This document shows, one piece after another, positions 1,314 through 64,000 of a stretch of 64,000 bases of DNA. The stretch lies in contig OZ024880.1 in the NCBI GenBank assembly GCA_964017185.1, positions 47,443,071 through 47,507,070 of the forward strand, written 5' to 3'. Position numbers and translations under genes: made by a program. The notes below the pieces were generated by a model. That model had not been told where the DNA came from and did not search any database. It saw nothing but the letters and a program-made list of their open reading frames with translations. Position 1 is the first letter of the stretch; each line of letters opens with the position of its first letter. Source of the DNA: Rugalucina vietnamica (taxonomy: Eukaryota > Mollusca > Bivalvia > Lucinida > Lucinidae).

Positions 1314-2001
1314 ATGACGTATAAACCCTTACAACAATTTATGCCAACTATATATGGCTACCCTTTCCGTTTGCCGTACGGCGCTAATGTAAGCCAAATG
1401 TTGCAAAACGCTCCATTGCCTAGTCAATTTCAAGCTGGGATCCAGCAGGTGCCACATCCGTTATTTATGCAGGCTTCTATGCAGCATTTACTCCAGAATC
1501 AGTGTGGAGAATTTAATAACAAAGTGACAACAAATAATGCAAATGTATGCACCGACGGAGACCGTCCATTAAATCATTCTAACGGAAATGAGAGTCCTGG
1601 TGGTCAAAGCTCTCATAGAGATACTTTGACTGTCGCAAACTTACCCAAAAGCGGGTCTGATCAGAACCAATAACAGTCTGAGACTCAAGAATCGGACGAT
1701 GTCTTCATCGGTGCCTACAGAAAACGGTATATAAAGTTCTTTGTTAGCAATATTGATGAGCGATCTACAAGAAACGGTATACTTTCGCATTTCAAAGACA
1801 ATGTGGTTATAATTAGTAATTTGAGGTTGCATAGAAGCAAAAGTGGCAACTGCTACGCCAAGGTGACTATAGAGCGTAATTATACAGGCAATTGAGTCGG
1901 TTGACTTTGACTGGCTTGCGGGAGTATACTGCAACTATTGGAAGACAAATACGAATTCTAGTAATAGACGCTCGAGGCAAACAGAACGCCATAATAGAAA
2001 A
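1314..2001 (+). pseudogene. Non-LTR retrotransposon ORF1 (broken)
   Basis: The frame opens at ATG 1314, has an in-frame stop at 1671, then continues in the same frame with DDVFIGAYRKRYIKFFVSNI and a stretch resembling an RRM-like fold up to 1892. After a frameshift it appears to continue (FDWLAGVYCNYW) to about 2001. The N-terminal part is rich in Gln, Asn and Met. Position directly upstream of an endonuclease/RT ORF identifies it as ORF1, the nucleic-acid-binding protein of such elements. It is inactive (stop plus frameshift). Confidence 0.6.
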
Positions 2002-2045
2002 TAAATTTTCACTTAGCAGTTTTCGCGTCACACAAGCCTTCCAAT

Positions 2046-5000
2046 ATGTGCAGGTATCCAGTATACCAGGAAAAGTTTATATTGTTTAGTTTTATCATAA
2101 TGGGTCTGTACATAGCAACATGGAACGTAAGGGGTGCCATGTCTTCCGCCCTGAGTTTACACGATTTGCTTGAACAAACAAACTGTGATGTAGCACTTAT
2201 CAGTGAACATAAGTTATTGCCACACAGCTTAGTTTTTCTGAACAGTATCAATGGTAATTATATAAGTCATAGCTGTTGTGATAAGACGCTGGACTGTTAT
2301 TCAATGCTTCGTTGTGGTAAAGGCGGGGTATCTATTATGTATAAAAATACATTAGCATCAAGAATTGAACTGATCAATACTGATAGATATAGATTAATAG
2401 GCATACGATTACTAGGGCTCACCGCAAAACCTTTCATTATATTTTCTGTATACATGCCCTCTAATAACTAAATAAATGATTACAGAGATCAGCTTATTCT
2501 TATTCAGGCAACTTATTACTCCGAGATGGGTCATGTCATTCTGGGTGGAGACTGGAACGCCAGCTTACTTGATGAAGAACACATAAATGTCAGCAAATCA
2601 ACGGACCTTAGGCAATTTGTTCGCATTAATAACATATACCCGGTTAATACCATTGCGACATGTTCTGGACCTAGTTATACTTGCATGCCTGTAAAATCAA
2701 TGATTGATTATATTCTCATAGATGAAATTACATTTCACTTAGTGTCAAGTTGCTGTATTCTTGAGGAGGGATCGTGCTCATCAACCTCTGATCATCTGCC
2801 GATTGTGCGTACACTACGACTAGGTAACCCTGGCATCCCAAAGCCGGGCATATGCTCAAAGAACAAATGGATTGCATGGCATAAAGCTAGCCCAGAGAAC
2901 TTAATTTAAAGGACTATGAAAATAAGTTATCACAACTCCTTCTTAGCCTACAAAACTGGGCCGTGCGCAGTGCAAATGACATTCATTTATTCGAAACAGA
3001 AATCGTTAAATGTATTCACCAAGCAGCGAAAGATTTTTTACCATTCACATCCCCGAATTCGCATACCAAACCGTACTGGAACGATAACATAAAACAGTTA
3101 CATAAAATTGAACGCCATGAGAGAATAGAATGGATAAAAGCGGAGAGGCCTCGTGAACGTAACCACCCCAACTATGTAAAATATAAAAAAAGCCAAGGAG
3201 CTATTTAGAATTGCACAACGAACCGCTAGTGAAGAATACATGAAGTATACATGAGATACAAACTGCGGCTGAATGTGATATACGGCTATTTTGGAAGCTG
3301 GTCGAAAAGCTCTTATAACGTGTCAAATATTCAGTTAGTACAAAATGAACAAGTTTTGTCATCACAAGACGAAGTTTTGAATGCATTTGAAGTATTCTAT
3401 AAGGACATTTGTTCAGTTAAACAAAACCCGAACTATGATGAAAATTTTCGCCAAATGACAGAATCTAAATTCGAAAACCTGAAAGCGATAACTTCCCAAC
3501 AATATGAGCAAATAACTGAATCAGAAATTACTGATGATGAGCTTAACAGCATTATTTCTAGTCTTAAATCAATGAAAGCTCCTGGCTGGGATGGTTTTCA
3601 GATCGAGCACGTTGCATATGGAGGAAGCGCCTTAATACGTGTTATACCTAAACTTTTGAACAGCATACTGTTACTTGAAGCTGTGCCAAACCCCTGGAAA
3701 AAAGGTCTGATCATTCCAATTTATAAAGGTCATCGCAAACATCGTTCCGACATTAATAGCTACAGACCTGTGACTTTACTCAATACTTTTTATAAAATGT
3801 ACGAACGGATACTGCAAAATAGAATTCATAACTTTCTTAGACTAAATGATATCCGATTTCCCAATCCTTAACAGCAAGGGTTTCAAAAGAAACTAAGTTG
3901 TGTTAGTACTGTGTTCAGCTTACAAGAGACGATACAATACAATATAGACCAGGGTAGTTGTACTTACGTTGCCTTCCTGGATATAAAGAAGGCCTTTGAT
4001 ACAGTATGGCACCATGCCATGCTTGTGAAATAATATGAGCTAGGAATATGTGGAAAAGCATGGCGAATTATATGCTTGTTTTACGAAAATATGTTAAGCG
4101 CTGTAACCATAAACAGACAGCAGTCGAACTGGTTCCATGTGGAACAAGGGGTAAGGCAAGGAGGCGTTTTGTCAACGTTCTTGTATTAAGTCTACAACGA
4201 AGACCTATTAACTGAACTCGAAAAAAGTAACAAAGGGTGCAAAATTGGGTCCATTGATTGCTGTTGCCCAACATATGTGGATGACGATGTTCTTGTGGCT
4301 AATTCACTTCGTAACTTACAAATTCTTGTGAATATCGCATATGCTCATTCTTGTAAATATCATTATGAGTTCCATGCAGACAAGTCATGTGTCGTCATAT
4401 TTGGAAAACATACAAGAACGATACAACAAACAATATCTGTGTACCTTGGCAGGAAGCTTATCCCGCAAAGTAGCGCGACTGTTTATTAGGGACGCGTGTG
4501 CGAAGGGAACATCATCATTATTCAGCATGGCAGATATTGGCGTACGCCCTTGTAGGCTTAATACAAAAACTTCCATAGATCTCTACAGGAAAGTCGTTAT
4601 GCCCACTGTATTATACGGCTGTGAAGTCTGGAATAAACTGAAAACATGTGATGTATATAAAATAAATAAATTCCAGAGAATGACAGTTAAAAAGAGACAA
4701 GGATTTCAAAAGTATGTGCGTACTGGCATGTGCGAGTCCATGGTGGGCGCAATTAGTCTTTCATTTGAAGTGAAAGAAGAAAGTTGTAATTCTTAGGAAC
4801 TCTATGTGGACTATCTCATTATTCAGTTCCAAATAGACTACTTCACTTTAAACTGTATATGTTCCTTGACCATGGTATTGACTCTGGATTTGTTTCCGAC
4901 ATAATAAAGTACAAGTAGGCAAAGATCAGGAAAAGGCGCAATCAGAAAAAGACTCCCACTCCAAAAACCAAGGTGGGAAAAAACCAAACTAACAATCAGG

Positions 5001-5742
5001 TACTTATACCATGAAAACATTTCGTAAACCGAATGGGCAGCTATTTTCCCAATAGGTGGCCACTCAGTTACCTTAACTTAACTAAAAATATGCAAACATA
5101 CATAAGGCACCACAGCACAAAAATATTTTAAACACCAAGACATAAAACAAAAAGAACCACCACAGAAGTATCGACTTGGAACGATCGGTAACACAAAGTT
5201 ACTGGCGGGTTTAAATCGATTTTACACGGCCGTAACCTCACCCTCAGCTTCTGCAGTGGTTCATAACATTTAGTTAGTTCTTCGGTCCTCGTGGTGAATC
5301 TCTAACTAGTAAGTGAATCATCAAGAACAAACAAATAAATCATGATAAACATCCTGATGAATAAAAAACCAGGACTCACAGATTCAGTAAGCTGCCCGAC
5401 GATGGAGATCCCTGGGCGCCAAATAACTTACTAACTCCGGAGCTAAAGAAAAACATCAGTTGGACCCCGGTGGGCCAAGCAACAGACAAGAAGCTCCGGC
5501 CCCAACCAACTAAAATGAATAGCTTTAAGTCGGGGCCATCATAGAGTCTCACGCCCGACCCACCGGCGTGCAATTAAAGAAGGCAGCATAATGTCTATAT
5601 TATCCAAATATAATCCGGAAAATCATGTACACCAGTACCTGCATACCTTACAATTTCCAGGAAAGTTCTCATGGAAACGTATGGTAAATAGTGCAATAAG
5701 ACAATATGAATATAGACAATGGCTATGTAGAATAGACCGAGA
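2046..5742 (+). pseudogene. Non-LTR retrotransposon ORF2: endonuclease and reverse transcriptase (broken, interrupted)
   Basis: This is the polyprotein that nicks the target and copies element RNA. The apurinic-type endonuclease shows ATWNVRGAM near 2115, ISEHKL, GGDWNASL near 2540 and SDHLPIVR near 2790. The RT begins with SMKAPGWDGF near 3570 and continues with NSYRPVTLLN, then AFLDIKKAFDTVW (motif A, about 3975), GVRQGGVLS (motif B) and PTYVDDDV (motif C, 4268-4291). The C-terminal part has VVMPTVLYGCEVWN near 4590. In-frame stops lie at 2469, 3869, about 4030 and about 4186, with frameshifts near 2910-2960, near 3280 and after about 4440. The frame is split by another retroelement at 4906-5586 and resumes afterwards with SILSKYNPENHVHQYL. 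It is a dead copy of a Jockey/CR1/I-type lineage; I cannot assign the clade. Confidence 0.88.
4906..5590 (-). mobile_element. Insertion of the RT-family retroelement 3' region into LINE ORF2
   Basis: The sequence from GTACAAGTAGGCAAAG (the shared 3' terminus, read on minus) to GCAGCATA is about 85-95% like 63155-63840 by eye. It contains the family's 3' noncoding region and stops just short of the RT C-terminal codons. CATAAT occurs on both sides (4900-4905 and 5587-5592), which may be a target duplication, although CATA is also family sequence. The host LINE frame resumes just after it. Confidence 0.8.
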
Positions 5743-12548: not shown

Positions 12549-13801
12549 CCTAATGTTACGTCTACACCGGGCCACGTTCTCACTACGTCCTTACTACGTC
12601 CTAGAAAAAATAAGGACGTAGTGAGGACGTGGTACGGTCTTGTAGGACGTGGTAGGAACGTAGTAAGGACGTAGCGAGGTCTTGATGGACGCGGAGGTCT
12701 TGGTCAAATTTTGAACATGCTCAAAAGAAACGTGGCGAGGACGGGGTGGAATTAGAACGCAGTAAGGACGTAGTAAGGACGTGGTAAGGACGTAGTAGGA
12801 ACTTGTAGGACGTAGAAAGAACGTGGCGCAAACGTAGTGCGATCTTCGTGGACGCGATGCAAACCTTGTTGCAGACCATCAAAACCTCGCTACGCTTCTA
12901 CTACGTCTTCGCTACGTCCTCGCTACGTCCATCAAGTTCTCGACAAGACCATACCACGCTTCTTGTACGTCCTTACCGCGTCCTAGAAGACTGCACTGCG
13001 TTCTTATCACGTCCTAGCGGTTCCTAACACGTCCTTAGTAGGTTCTTATCACGTTCACACCAGGTTCGAACTACGTCCTCCACGTTTTATTAATTTTGTT
13101 TTAATTGTCCCGTACCCTCAAGCAATTGCTTTCGCTTTTATTTAAATCATATCGAAATCGAAACATGAACAGAGAAGTACTCTTGCAACTTGCTCTCCTT
13201 CAAGGACATCATGCCTTACTTGGTGCACAGGCTGCACTTGTGCTATTTCACAGAAGGAGGAATAGGACAAGATCTTGTTGGGTGAGACCTTGGTTATCAG
13301 CTAAAAGAAAGCTTCAGTATTGGCATTACGGCCGAGTGCTAGCGGAGATGAGGATATAGGACCAGCAGTCGTTCTTCAATTTCATGCCAATGCCACCAGA
13401 AATGTTGTCCGCCCGTCATTTTCTTATTGCAATTTTAAGCTGTTTCGCAACTTATCTGATTCTTAATACACGACTGATTAATATATTTACATTTAGAACG
13501 TGCTTGAAACGTAGTTCGCGCGTGGTATGAACTGCTTGGTCTTTGTGGGGACGTAGCAAGGACGAAGTGGAAACGGGATGAACTTGGTGAGCGCGTATTG
13601 AGGACGTAGTGGAAACGTGAAGGACGTAGTAAGGACGTGGTGCGGACGTAATAAGGACGTGGCAGGGACGTAGTATAGACGTAGTGGGAACTTACAAATC
13701 CGAAATTGTTTCAATTTGACCCTGTCCTCGTCACGTTCTTGAATCTTTAGAACGTGGTGAGGACGCAGTGAGAACGTGATCCAGTGTAGACGTAACATTA
13801 A
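12549..13801. mobile_element. Harbinger-like element with GGACGTAGT array
   Basis: The left end ATGTTACGTCTACAC followed by CACGTTCTCACTACGTCC is inverted at the right end (GAGAACGTGAT... then GTGTAGACGTAACAT), giving about 40 bp terminal inverted repeats. The zones 12549-13090 and 13495-13790 are dense arrays of the degenerate word GGACGTAGT(A/G) and its complement ACTACGTCC, present in both orientations so the element can fold on itself. The centre carries a fragment of transposase. The left end is 345 bp after the sushi exon. Confidence 0.75.
13105..13440 (+). pseudogene. PIF/Harbinger transposase N-terminal fragment
   Basis: The frame from 13105 includes RRRNRTRSCWVRPWLSAKRK, then QYWHYGRVLAEMRI, a stop at 13357, then in the same frame DQQSFFNFMPMPPEML. 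The (W)VRPWL followed by G.Y..L..ELR and (F)FNF.RMPPEMF is the N-terminal signature of HARBI1-type DDE transposases. The catalytic domain is missing. It sits in the middle of the inverted-repeat element, so it is a relic of the autonomous parent. Confidence 0.7.
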
Positions 13802-25095: not shown

Positions 25096-25424
25096 CAACA
25101 GTATCTATTTATCTATTTATTTATATATATATTTATTTATTTATTTTTCATTTATTTATTCATTTCATCTTATTTTATTTATTAAAGAAATAGTGCACAC
25201 TGGCGACTATAAGACGTCATGTAACCAGTGTTGGCTTGCAGCTGAAATTAATTTCTCATACCATTTCACATGGGAAAAACAAATTTCAACACGCCATGTA
25301 CGTACCTAAAAACAAACCCATTTCATTCTTTATTATTATGCAAACAATGATTCTGAAAGCTTCGATTACGTTGCGTTTTTAAAGCTTGATCAGACCTTTA
25401 CACTGTTTATTTTACGGGTTTCAG

Positions 25425-25751
25425 GGATGTACTAATGGCAATGCCGTTTTTGGAGATTCCCCTTTTGAAAATTATTCACCCCCGGACGTTGGTACTGAAA
25501 AAGATGACACATACTTCATAAACAGTTATATTCTGTGCCCCTTCTTCATGGACATTATAACGACGCGTGTAGGCACGTTGTACACACGTATGGCGACCGC
25601 AACAGTGGATGATGATTTGTCAAATGACAGTGAGGTTAGCAAGGTCGATGATATGGTTAAAACAACATATAACAGGATGCATTATGAGTCTGCAACGATG
25701 ATCAAAATCACTTGGGATGGTGTGGGCCGGTTTGGAGGAGCTTTTTCAGAG
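25425..25751 (+). CDS. Exon: NIDO domain core
   Basis: The acceptor is TTTACGGGTTTCAG and the donor GTAAAG; phase 0-0, 109 codons. CTNGNAVFGDSPFENYSPPD continues the NIDO strand N-G-x-(V/I)-x-F-G. Further on LCPFFMDIITTRVGTLYTRM replaces the usual (I)APFWxDxxxR segment, and ITWDGVGRFGGAFSE corresponds to the V-x-W-x-x-V-G-x-(F/Y) strand. There are two cysteines. The CPFFMDI form in place of APFWAD is unusual for the family but may be a lineage variant. Confidence 0.9.
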
Positions 25752-25903
25752 GTAAAGTCTACATTTTCTTACATTCATTTGCTTGCATTCAACCTTTACT
25801 TATTTTAATTTCTAATACACACGTTATTGCTTAAACAGAAGTGCCCTTTTAACATTGCTCCTTCTATGCCTTCTCCAGATATTCTTAGAAACTATGGATA
25901 TAA

Positions 25904-26328
25904 TGTGACGGGGTAGCCTCCATTGGAAATATGCAAATTTCAAACTCGAGACTTTGTGAATCGAGTTAGTGTTGGGTATATAGAGCAGTAAACCACCCTT
26001 GGTGGATGAGCATGCATTTCCACCGACGGGGTTTACTGTGGCTTGGCTCGGCTGTTCGTTACATTTGGTGGCAGCGGTGGGATGATGACAACTGCCAGAA
26101 CGGAGTTGCCTTACCCAAGTAGTTCCCAGGCCAAGACTCGTGACGAGTCTTCTCGGAGAGGGAAGTAATGTGACGGGGTAGCCTCCCTTGGAAATATGCA
26201 AATTTCAAACTCGAGACTTTGTGAATCGAGTTAGTGTTGGGTATATAGAGCAGTAAGCCACCCTTGGTGGATGAGCATGCTTTTCCACCGACGGGGTTTA
26301 CTGCGGCTTGGCTCGGCTGTGCGTTACA
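25904..26328 (+). mobile_element. Miniature LTR retroelement (TRIM) with Leu-tRNA primer site
   Basis: Two 160 bp direct repeats, 25904-26063 and 26169-26328, differ at about five positions. Each starts TGTGACGGGG and ends CGTTACA (TG..CA). The 105 bp between them begins with TGGTGGCAGCGGTGGGAT (26066-26083), which is complementary to the 3' end of a typical animal tRNA-Leu including CCA. It ends with the purine tract CGGAGAGGGAAG before the second repeat. There is no coding capacity. ATATAA on the left and ATATTA on the right may be a mutated target duplication. It lies 152 bp after the NIDO core exon. Confidence 0.9.
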
Positions 26329-27070
26329 ATATTATGCTCGTGGTTCGTCCAGAAAGACCGTGTAGTTGTGTTATATCTCTTATAATTTTCAAACAATATA
26401 CTAGAAAGTTGGTGTGTGTAGAAAAGATAAACAAGTGACCCGGGAAACTCAAAATGCAGGTTATCTTGACGATGTAATCATCGGTACCCGGAGCAGTCCG
26501 AAAAATACCAATTGTTAAACAAGGTCTTGGGGGAATATAAATAATTTCTGATTGTTTGCTTTACGTCAGAAACACGTGCAATCGCCATGTAATATTTCAA
26601 CGACATAACATTATTTCCTGACAATTTCAAATCAATTTGATGTTCCACAATAGAAGCTACACCTCTATTTCAAAAGTTGTAGGGGAAAACCATGGCGTCA
26701 AACTGTGTCGTTGCAGAAAAACTTTACATTTTCAAATAAACTGAATAAAATATGAGAAATGTTGTTCAGTGTTTATATACAAATGTCACTCATGTTCTAA
26801 GGAAGGAATATTAAAACAAACCAACTGATGACGATTGTAGAAGTTACCAACCGGCAATGGGACACATTTGCACGATTCTCGGTGTCTGAGTTTGGCATTT
26901 AAAATTGAAGCATATCAATAATACGTGAAGGTTGTCTGCAAATTTGCAATTGACTATGCAAGTCAGTACAGAGGTCAAAGTTCGAGGAGTGCAAAATTGT
27001 TTAATTTCGTAATATTTTATTCAAATTATGATCGAATGAATATTATAATGGCTGAATGGGGTAATTTTAG
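26329..27070. other. Intron sequence without recognised features
   Basis: No repeat, exon or RNA is identified. Confidence 0.35.
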
Positions 27071-33867: not shown

Positions 33868-34045
33868 ACTTCAACGTTTCAAATGATCATATCCAGCGAT
33901 GGCAGAGATACATTTGTCATGTATTTCTATGGCGTGAATCAGATGAAGTTCCGGTTCGGTAAACCTTTTATTGGCTGGGTTGCCAACAGTGTTTTCCACC
34001 GTAAACTGACCACTAGAAGACCTGATCAATACCTGATCCAGAATG
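33868..34045 (+). CDS. Exon: end of NIDO domain
   Basis: The acceptor is TTGCATCTTTCAG and the donor GTGAGT; phase 0 in, phase 1 out. The translation TSTFQMIISSDGRDTFVMYF followed by YGVNQMKFRFGKPFIGWVAN carries the NIDO strand N-T-F-Q-x-(V/I)-(L/I)-x-(T/S)-D-G with a following aromatic strand. The remaining residues (VFHRKLTTRRPDQYLIQNG) link to the AMOP exon. Confidence 0.9.
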
Positions 34046-35455: not shown

Positions 35456-36492
35456 CATAAAGAGTGGGTATTCACCCACGCTTAGAAACAATTTGGATCG
35501 AAATCAAGTTAAAATCTCAAACTATTCTAATTTGTTGCTATTATCGTAGCAATTTCATTGTATCCCAGTCAACTTTTATAGCGGAAATACAACCGTCTAT
35601 TGAACAAGCTTTGGACTATACACTCAATATTATTCTCTTGGGCGACATTAATGTCGACTTTTTAAACTTAAGAAGCCCTGATGTACTCGACTGTCTAACT
35701 CTTTTTAACTTAACAAATGTCATAAACGAGCCAACAAGAACTATTGGAAACTCTAGCACTTTGATTGATCCCGTTATAGTCAGTGATGCGTGTCAAGTAC
35801 TAGATTCAGGCACAATCTCCGTTGACATTGCCATCAGCGATCACAAAGCTACATTTGTCTCTAAACGAACAGAGACACCATTCCTAAAATCGTACACTAG
35901 AGAAATATGGAATTACAAAAATGCAATTTTTGACGAACTTAACGAAAAAATCAGACAACATGATTGGGATCACTTAATTCATAATCAATTAACCGTTGAC
36001 GAAGCGTGTACTAATTTTACCGAGGCTTTTATTAAGTTATGTGAGTCAAGCATACCCCGCAAAAAGTTTTAATTAGACCATCAGTTCGCCCATGGTGTAC
36101 CTCAGAGCTTCGTCAAAATATTCGTTCGAGAGATAGACTTCGACAGAAAGCACTTCGAACAAAAAATAATCGAGATATAATACGGTATAAAGCCCAACGG
36201 AATAGGGTAATTAACATGAAAAAATATGCTAAAGAAACTTATATGAATAACTATGAGGATCTGATATTAAATCAAAGTTGTGGTAGTAAAACGTTTTGGC
36301 AATTGATGGGAATACTGGTTGATAAACAATCAAAACTTAGCAATATACCGCCCCTAGAAACCCCAAACGACTCGTACGTTTATACCGATGTTGAAAAAGC
36401 TAACTTATTAAACAGCTACTTCTGTTCCATCTCCTCGATAGATGACTCCAACGTTAATCTCCCTGACTTTAACAAAAGAACCCAGTCGACGT
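35456..36492 (+). pseudogene. CR1-like LINE fragment: endonuclease C-terminus and pre-RT linker
   Basis: LETIWIEIKLKSQTILICCY YRS, LNIILLGDINVDFLN, NEPTRTIGNSSTLIDPVIVSD and ISDHKATF are the second half of the APE-type endonuclease. After the stop at about 36070 a frameshift leads into RPSVRPWCTSELRQNIRSRD and KYKAQRNRV-type linker, then KTFWQLMG and YTDVEKANLLNSYFCSIS just before where the RT should start. The element is cut there (about 36492), so it lacks its RT. It is a different family from the 1314-5742 element. Confidence 0.8.
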
Positions 36493-37015
36493 TATCTGAC
36501 TTACACTGGTACCTTTTTAATGCCTTTGATATGGCGCCGGACTGGGTTCAAACCTGCAACATCCCGATCCCCAAGCTAATGCAGAACTTGGACAGGACGG
36601 GTTATCGCAGGTGTGCTTCGATTTGGAGGACATGCTACCAACCGAATAACTTCCTTAGAGTTTCACGTTTGCCTATAGCACAACACAAATAGCATTCCCG
36701 ACCTTTTCCAAGCAAATAAGAATAAAATTAATGAATATAAAAACTCATTTTATACTCGCTTCCTTTTCTGTGAATTCCACTTTTACTTCACATATAAAAC
36801 AAAACTTTTCAGGCAAAATGTTTGCAAGCATGTATTATCAACTGAGGGGGAGTCTGATAAAAATTGTTGGATTTGTGTTACAGTTTGTTGTTTTAACCAT
36901 TAGGAGCTGTCAAATAAATCACCAGTATCAGAGAGATGTACTGCTAGCAGATTTTTGAAAATTTGGAAAAGTTGGCGTTTTGCAGACAACTATATAAGTT
37001 TCTTGAAATTGTAAA
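36493..37015. other. Intron sequence after the LINE fragment
   Basis: It joins the LINE fragment abruptly. No RT residues follow, and no other feature is recognised. Confidence 0.4.
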
Positions 37016-63154: not shown

Positions 63155-63770
63155 AGGTACAAGTAGGCAAAGATCAGGAAAAGGCGCAATCAGAAAAAGA
63201 TTCCCACTCCAAAAACCGAGGTGGGAAAAAACAAACTAACAATCAGGTACTTATACCATGAAACATATCGTAAGCCGAATGAGCAGCTATTTTCCCAATA
63301 GGTGGCCACTCAGTTACCTTAACTTAACTAAAAATATGAAAACATACATAAGGCGCCAACAGCACAAAAAATTTTAAACACCAAGACATAAAACAAAAAG
63401 AACCACTACAGAAGTATCGACTTGGAACGATCAGTAACACAAAGTTACTGGCGGGCTTAAACCGGTTTTACAGGTACCTAACCTCACCCTCAGCTTCTGC
63501 AGTGGTTCACAACATTTAGTTAGTTCTTCGGTCCTCGTGGTGAATCTCTAACTAGTCAATGAATCATCAAGAACAAACAAATAAATCGTGATAAACATCC
63601 TGATGAATCAAAAACCAGGGCTCACAGATTGAGTAAGCTGCCCGACGATGGAGATCCCTGGGCGCCGAATAACCTACTAACTCCGGAGCAAAAGAAAAAC
63701 ACCAGTTGGACCCCGGTGGGCCAAGCAACAGACAAGAAGCTCCGGCCCCAACCAACTAAAATGAATAGCT
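63155..63770 (-). mobile_element. RT-family retroelement 3' noncoding region (best copy)
   Basis: On minus, it follows the RT stop codon and ends at the invariant GCCTACTTGTACC (63155). This copy is the reference for the family in the window. Antisense and sense frames within it (for example 63567-63819) reappear in several copies because the DNA is repeated; I see no evidence that they are translated. Confidence 0.88.
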
Positions 63771-64000
63771 TTAAGTCGGGGCCATCATAGAGTCTGACGC
63801 CCGACCCACCGGCGTGCAATTAAAGAAGGCAGCATAGTTATCAACCATGATTGGGTTAAAAACTAAGCATGCAGACTGTCGCATAACATTCAAGTTATAA
63901 CCTATACGTCTGTAACGTGATATGATTTTTCCGAACTGAAGAGAAAAATCATTTATTCCTTTAAGTTTCTTTAATTTGTAAACCAAGTCACCATAAAATT
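63771..64000 (-). CDS. Reverse transcriptase C-terminus, runs off the window edge
   Basis: The open frame continues past 64000 with no ATG needed inside the window: FYGDLVYKLKKLKGINDFSL, then ISRYRRIGYNLNVMRQSACL, then MVDNYAAFFNCTPVGRASDS MMAPT and a stop. It continues the residues seen at 29690-29820 (EPEFYGDFVYKLKK), so it is the C-terminal extension of the RT whose palm motifs survive at 16480-16960. It is intact as far as visible; the rest of the element, and whether it is active, lies beyond the window. Confidence 0.7.
   Translation of the reverse strand, partial: FYGDLVYKLKKLKGINDFSLQFGKIISRYRRIGYNLNVMRQSACLVFNPIMVDNYAAFFNCTPVGRASDSMMAPT

Follow-up and report, generated by a model that had tools for sequence, protein, structure and literature searches.

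The window, by which we mean the whole 64-kb stretch of DNA that was analysed (C12:47443071-47507070, in a genome of 1,089,854,562 bases and 47 contigs), holds one copy of a 425-bp element with two long terminal repeats (LTRs), preceded at a distance of about 150 bp by a NIDO-domain open frame. The features of the locus are the following.

25383..25751, + strand: open frame of the host, encoding a NIDO domain (23.3 bits, under the Pfam cut-off of 25; splice donor assigned by eye)
25900..25903, + strand: 5' target-site flank ATAA (3/4 match with 26329-26332)
25904..26063, + strand: 5' LTR, beginning with TGTGACGG and ending with CGTTACA
25977..25982, + strand: TATATA, putative Pol II TATA box at LTR position 74 (5' LTR)
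25985..26039, + strand: hairpin in the 5' LTR, with GCATGC in the loop (AGCATGCT in most copies)
26064..26168, + strand: interior, 105 bp between the LTRs
26064..26065, + strand: TT spacer from LTR end to primer-binding site (pre-integration end ...CATT)
26066..26083, + strand: primer-binding site (PBS), 18 nt, complementary to the 3' end of tRNA-Leu(TAG/AAG) plus CCA
26084..26118, + strand: leader behind the PBS, with a small predicted hairpin; candidate packaging signal
26152..26168, + strand: polypurine tract (PPT) CTCGGAGAGGGAAGTAA, with TAA before the 3' LTR
26169..26328, + strand: 3' LTR
26242..26247, + strand: TATATA in the 3' LTR
26250..26304, + strand: hairpin in the 3' LTR, loop AGCATGCT
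26329..26332, + strand: 3' target-site flank ATAT
33868..33960, + strand: likely next NIDO exon, from about 33868 (by eye only)

Since a NIDO frame lies upstream and a likely NIDO exon downstream, the element would be situated in an intron, in sense orientation. VWD and MUC4-type C8 domains, each above the Pfam cut-off, were found further along the same strand, and the host is most likely a gene of the NIDO/VWD type.

Anatomy and coding content of the element

The two LTRs could be aligned over 160/160 positions without a gap and with five mismatches (96.9% identity), and both have TG..CA ends. This pair of 160-bp repeats, the 18-base tRNA-Leu primer site with its CCA (26066-26083) and the purine tract before the 3' LTR (26152-26168) had all been claimed in a first-pass annotation made from the letters of the window, and every one of them was confirmed. 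The PBS, which reads TGGTGGCAGCGG in the window element, was unique in the window even when three mismatches were allowed, and a match to it appeared in 0/100 shuffles. With two extra bases per side, the ends of the element become AATGTGACG...CGTTACATT, inverted repeats matching at 8/9 positions; retroviral integrases trim such inverted-repeat ends by two bases.

Both LTRs contain a strong predicted hairpin with a palindromic loop, a feature absent from the first-pass annotation. The loop is TGAGCATGCTTT in 38/40 of the copies described below, and the 160-nt LTR folded 3.9 SD below its own shuffles, but the structure test on the LTR was uninformative because the copies are too young. The TATATA of the 5' LTR was found at LTR position 74 in 40/40 copies.

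Searches for coding content were negative, in keeping with the earlier statement that the 425 bp hold no coding sequence. A 126-aa stop-to-stop frame on the minus strand over the element (25824-26204) and a 28-codon frame in the interior (26082-26168) both gave no Pfam match at E values up to 1. The first ATG of the interior frame was present in 22/40 copies, the second (26085) in 39/40, and the same stop in 34/40; such retention proves little, because the copies are so young, and we consider it unlikely that this short frame encodes a peptide. Rfam, searched over 25800-26450 at E up to 5, returned only two matches, both far below the gathering score; no hammerhead or other ribozyme family was among these two, and none reached the gathering score in the whole window. 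In a literature search for the element's own sequence, none of the titles listed concerned an LTR element.

The window also contains other repeats. A SECIS_1 match (63729-63796, minus strand; 39 bits, gathering score 35) lies within a dispersed repeat that recurs near 5452, 16037 and 42668, and may be a repeat-borne look-alike or reflect a repeat carrying a SECIS-like fold. Minisatellite blocks at 12613-13054 and 13551-13686 consist largely of an 11-base ACGTAGTAAGG-like unit. LINE-like open frames were noted at 1998-3871 and 35461-36692; of three frames tested in these regions, two gave endonuclease-reverse-transcriptase domain matches, under the Pfam cut-off.

Copies, target sites and primer tRNA

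The search for dispersed copies that the first-pass annotation had proposed was positive. The exact 26-base junction of LTR end and PBS occurs 1,535 times in the genome (736 + 799 on the two strands), and the interior start GGGATRATGACAACTGCC 1,687 times (830 + 857), with no hit for the reversed control pattern in either case. When the 425 bp were used as a BLAST query, the best 40 of 2,524 candidates were scored, namely the window copy and 39 others; these 39 were 93-96% identical to the query, and all 40 were distributed over 14 contigs. The PBS was exact in 36/40.

For scoring target-site duplications (TSDs), the 39 other copies were fetched with about 60 bp of flank. In this sample, which consists of the best BLAST matches after the window copy and is thus biased to close relatives, an exact 4-bp TSD was present in 29/39 copies (28 distinct insertion sites, the flanks being common to L042 and L043) and a match of at least 3 of 4 bases in 34/39, leaving 10/39 without an exact TSD. 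Shuffling the flanks among copies 1,000 times yielded a mean of 1.33 exact TSDs and a maximum of 7. As the duplication extended to 5 bp in 0/39 copies, 4 bp is the rule of the family. The TSD of the window copy itself, on which the first-pass annotation was silent, is imperfect (ATAA/ATAT, 3/4). The idea that its ATAT includes two unprocessed bases was dropped, since other copies show the 4 bp directly at TG/CA.

The first-pass annotation had taken the divergence of about 3% between the repeats as a sign of fairly recent insertion. This agrees with the K2P distances between LTRs, 0.032 for the window copy and a median of 0.019 over the 40 copies of the same biased sample. Identical LTRs were found in 8/40 copies, which points to recent activity.

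Some copies stand in a more complex setting. The flanks of L050, L051 and L052 are common over 2-2.9 kb (96-99.8%); to judge from sequence, the element is there nested in another repeat or in a duplicated segment that spread with it. At L049:3500-3900, behind the 3' LTR of L047, we noticed TTTGTGGCAGCG, a broken PBS-like stretch, followed by unrelated sequence.

The PBS is the exact reverse complement of an 18-nt 3'-tRF-Leu(AAG/TAG) tabulated in PMC8698603. The corresponding tRNA 3' end, GGTTCGAATCCCACCGCTGCCA, had 21 exact matches in the same genome (reversed control 0), and ARAGORN recognized a tRNA-Leu, with anticodon tag or aag, in 7/8 loci scanned (none at L057; L054 and L055 overlap). 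The host tRNA-Leu with this exact 3' end, suggested earlier as a further check, was thereby found. Among viral contigs there was one exact PBS match (L001), which we regard as a chance match, since it falls within a 494-aa frame of a contig read as a terminase-bearing phage.

Gypsy loci and the shared primer site

A full-length Gypsy or Copia parent having the 160-bp repeat as its own LTR had also been proposed as something to look for, and here our search, limited by its pattern, found none. Sites with the same LTR end and PBS but a different interior numbered 33 (reversed control 0), a pattern that misses any parent whose bases just behind the PBS match those of the element. Thirty sites were cut out, 18 of them followed to about 1.5 kb only and consisting of variants of the element, tandem arrays or others; among these 30 there was no autonomous element with the same LTR. 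The autonomous partner was therefore assigned solely from its PBS, its termini and the length of its TSD, and we infer both its exact identity and the route of recombination.

We read the 425-bp element as a TRIM, an LTR retrotransposon that is non-autonomous and would be trans-mobilised by Ty3/Gypsy elements with the same tRNA-Leu primer, and we put the probability of this reading at about 0.87. The LTRs, tRNA-Leu PBS, PPT, 4-bp TSDs, dispersed family and recent activity are established at the level of sequence. The most likely agents of the TRIM's movement are Gypsy elements primed by the same tRNA-Leu, the PBS and leader being the common module. The TRIM would be transcribed from the TATA box in its LTR, its RNA packaged by the Gag of such elements and reverse-transcribed from tRNA-Leu, with the second strand primed at the PPT, and the product would be inserted by their integrase. 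Recognition by the machinery would involve the PBS, the leader of about 36 nt and the ends of the LTR (TGTRACG...CGTTACA).

Five of the sites, L065, L072, L078, L082 and L087, lack the TRIM LTR and have a spacer AA; L065, L072 and L082 show 84-88% similarity with one another across about 1.5 kb. A gag match under the Pfam cut-off was obtained at L065 and none at L072. At L082, integrase domains above the cut-off lie in the downstream piece, and the outer LTRs are 100% identical over a 997-bp match and bordered by TTTG/TTTG (TSD by eye). The same 18-nt PBS, CGTTACA end and 4-bp TSD length as in the TRIM were found in Gypsy copies at L077, L080 and L082, which are the candidate partners.

In the pattern-limited search, the TRIM LTR stood beside Gypsy genes only in chimeras. 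At L061, L076, L077 and L080, the order is PBS, TRIM interior, PPT, TRIM LTR, PBS and Gypsy coding frames. L061 carries, above the cut-off and in several separate frames, gag, a CCHC zinc knuckle, protease, RT, RNase H and integrase. L076 has the same domains from the zinc knuckle to integrase above the cut-off, with a gag match under it. At L080, RT, RNase H and the integrase zinc-binding domain are above the cut-off and a protease match is under it, and the frame behind the PBS gave no gag match in Pfam. At L077, the sequence directly behind the PBS encodes the end of RNase H and then integrase, both above the cut-off. The 1.5-kb stretches behind the second PBS show no nucleotide similarity among these four loci, implying that at least four Gypsy families were involved.

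Such chimeras could arise as a by-product, through recombination of TRIM and Gypsy at the common PBS, giving [Gypsy LTR]-PBS-[TRIM interior-PPT-TRIM LTR]-PBS-[gag-pol]. A crossover at the 18-nt PBS between a one-LTR TRIM circle and a Gypsy copy would produce exactly the observed order, and the same order would result from two strand transfers during reverse transcription in a common particle; the data fit both routes.

Two further arrangements involve TRIM sequence. L085 has repeats of 407 bp (99.5%), made up of a part of about 310 bp, with its upstream border inside a region coding for RNase H, and of TRIM LTR positions 65-160, from the TATA to the end. Past the repeat come a PBS, a frame with a gag match under the cut-off and, in the space before the 3' repeat, protease, RT and RNase H, with no integrase in the frame searched; we read L085, together with L102, as a probable strand-transfer product of Gypsy type. 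At L062 and L073, TRIM sequence is joined to a common sequence of about 400 nt (86%), in which no Gypsy domain was identified. L073 carries a whole TRIM unit, whereas L062 has the TRIM LTR and, of the interior, just the initial 54 nt, without a PPT match. A 999-aa frame near L062 is LINE-like.

The strongest alternative is that the TRIM arose by internal deletion from a single autonomous Gypsy family having the same LTR, and is still moved by that parent. Large elements with TRIM LTRs do occur in some plants (PMC4717578), and TRIM-type copies with a longer U3 exist here (L067, L070, L083 and L088), the same longer U3 recurring in the chimeras L061, L076 and L077. However, the five Gypsy-coding loci with a TRIM LTR (L061, L076, L077, L080 and L085) are chimeras and not clean parents, as judged with 30/33 pattern sites cut out, and we regard such a descent as rather unlikely.

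Could the chimeras be assembly errors? Short stretches of identity, such as the 18-nt PBS, may cause repeats to be joined wrongly, and in the pieces fetched the far (3') LTR was not found at L061 and L076. Against this, L077 has outer LTRs of about 1.1 kb (99.2 and 99.8% in two overlapping matches) and a GTAG/GTAG TSD (by eye) around the whole chimera. L080 has outer LTRs of 260 bp (98.8%) with TTAT/TTAT (by eye), the latter being weak evidence because the flanks are simple TAA/TTA repeats. As the same join also occurs in four different Gypsy backgrounds, we hold misassembly to be improbable.

A TRIM of the Helenus/TRIMp3 type, dependent on Pol III and with a tRNA-derived LTR, is very improbable. 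Bivalve families of this type exist, animal Helenus elements have 4-bp TSDs, and some hymenopteran and vertebrate ones use tRNA-Leu, but the bivalve PBS types listed in the part of PMC10886601 consulted do not include Leu. In our element there are six A-box-like sites at two mismatches (four on the plus strand), but no B box within two mismatches (two at three mismatches, plus strand), so that the LTR lacks the tRNA-derived pair of A and B boxes, and ARAGORN finds no tRNA in the window. Finally, a simple tandem duplication or satellite fragment that is LTR-like by chance, to which the first-pass annotation would have reverted had dispersed copies and a tRNA-Leu with this 3' end been missing, can be dismissed because both are present: tandem arrays of several TRIM units do occur (L068/L069, L074/L075, L083 and L090), but the 40 scored matches on 14 contigs, the conserved PBS and, decisively, the 4-bp TSDs speak against it.

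Returning to mobilisation by Gypsy elements, the part shared between unrelated elements extends beyond the PBS. When RAT was required behind the PBS and the usual TRIM LTR end in front of it was excluded, 275 sites were obtained (135 + 140; control 0). Some were TRIM LTR variants, such as L114. Among the matches listed, we read three stretches belonging to two other element types, L112 and L113 (head-to-tail tandem, period about 1,152 bp) and L115 (period 1,756 bp). Nothing in the stretches fetched matched the TRIM LTR at E values of 0.001 or below, but they have the PBS and about the next 36 nt in common with the TRIM (88-96% over 54-59 nt).

The frame starting from the leader stops after 16, 14 and 21 codons in these three stretches, versus 27 in the window element; a peptide is therefore probably not what the conservation of the leader keeps. 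A small hairpin was predicted at the same place of the leader in the window, L113, L114 and L115, with unremarkable energy (z of -1.4, -2.0, -0.2 and -1.0 in the four leaders folded). Retroviral packaging signals are often located just behind the PBS, which is why we propose the leader as a candidate packaging signal.

Taken further, the PBS and the leader of about 36 nt might form an RNA module that is portable and combines a primer site with a packaging signal; several non-autonomous families with unrelated LTRs would use it to parasitise the same tRNA-Leu Gypsy elements, the common PBS being at the same time a recombination hotspot that splices whole TRIM units into several Gypsy families. 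We offer this tentatively, at somewhat less than even odds.

Two observations appear to be new at the sequence level: four different Ty3/Gypsy loci in which two PBS copies exactly flank [TRIM interior-PPT-TRIM LTR], and two element types with unrelated LTR ends that have only the PBS and about 36 nt in common with the TRIM. A limited literature search found no description of TRIM units embedded at a Gypsy primer site. How a TRIM finds its helper is a general problem, for which this family offers a testable answer from one genome: a helper would be recognizable because it has primer site, TSD length and termini in common with the TRIM and forms chimeras with it at that site. If the portable-module reading is true, PBS-joined chimeras would be a genomic fingerprint that names a TRIM's helper. 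As to the extent of the problem, a plant survey reported 278/289 TRIM subfamilies without a related coding element (PMC4717578), and a helper was not found for biv-TRIM (PMC6934838) or PbTRIM (PMC3532108).

Comparison with known systems

TRIMs are an established kind of element, with descriptions from ants, tapeworms and bivalves, and the present element is one of them. It has direct TG..CA LTRs within the usual range of about 100-250 bp in an element below 1 kb (160 and 425 bp), a PBS beside the 5' LTR complementary to a tRNA 3' end (18 nt), a PPT before the 3' LTR, no retrotransposon coding (105-bp interior; both frames without a Pfam match) and dispersed copies with TSDs (exact 4-bp in 29/39; 1,535 junctions). 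With regard to trans-mobilisation, candidate Gypsy elements have PBS, termini and TSD length in common with it. The family adds a young and abundant animal TRIM with a full 18-nt tRNA-Leu primer site.

PbTRIM of the red harvester ant (PMC3532108) likewise has LTRs of 152-184 bp, no coding sequence, a leucine-tRNA PBS, 4-bp AT-rich TSDs, young copies and no partner of similar sequence found. Compared by description, it is longer (480-781 versus 425 bp) and its PBS shorter (about 15 versus 18 nt); unlike our analysis, the text seen does not mention PBS-joined chimeras. The ta-TRIM of taeniid tapeworms (PMC4558846) also has a Leu-tRNA PBS. Its TSDs in Echinococcus multilocularis are mostly of 4 bp (52/57), and its partner, lennie, was proposed from a common LTR start, PBS and TSD length. 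Unlike the present element, ta-TRIM has an LTR of about 198 bp, an interior of about 590 bp and a 9-nt PBS placed 4 bases from the LTR.

The bivalve biv-TRIM (PMC6934838) is likewise an invertebrate TRIM with tandem arrays and an autonomous partner that was not found. It differs in its 202-218 bp repeats, 77-80 bp interior, PPT (GGGGAGA) and a PBS not unambiguously identified; our element, with 160 bp, 105 bp, another PPT and, by eye, no TGATCCCAAAGGAC segment, is set apart from it by description. Helenus/TRIMp3 elements (PMC10886601) resemble it as animal TRIMs with 4-bp TSDs that are thought to depend on Gypsy, some of those outside bivalves using tRNA-Leu, but their LTR is of tRNA origin, for which no sign was found in the window element.

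The Steamer Gypsy family of bivalves (PMC8905726) likewise has a Leu-tRNA PBS and belongs to Ty3/Gypsy, like the candidate partners here. Its PBS (TGGTGTCAGAAG) and LTR start (TGTAACA) differ from TGGTGGCAGCGG and TGTGACGG, which separates our element from Steamer and suggests that another Leu isoacceptor is used. No hammerhead was found in the LTR, and the element is thus not a retrozyme (hammerhead LTR element).

The motif TGGTATCAGAGC is the common plant PBS. In the pair formed by the rice TRIM OsajRetroS10 and the Copia element OsajLTRA10, large elements have this duplicated 25-bp sequence, which contains the motif, at the TRIM breakpoint (PMC4717578). The authors interpret the rice TRIM as having arisen by internal deletion from the large element, which, unlike the situation here, is a Copia and has its LTR in common with the TRIM. 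By analogy, the rice pair OsajRetroS10/OsajLTRA10 may represent the same phenomenon, read the other way round.
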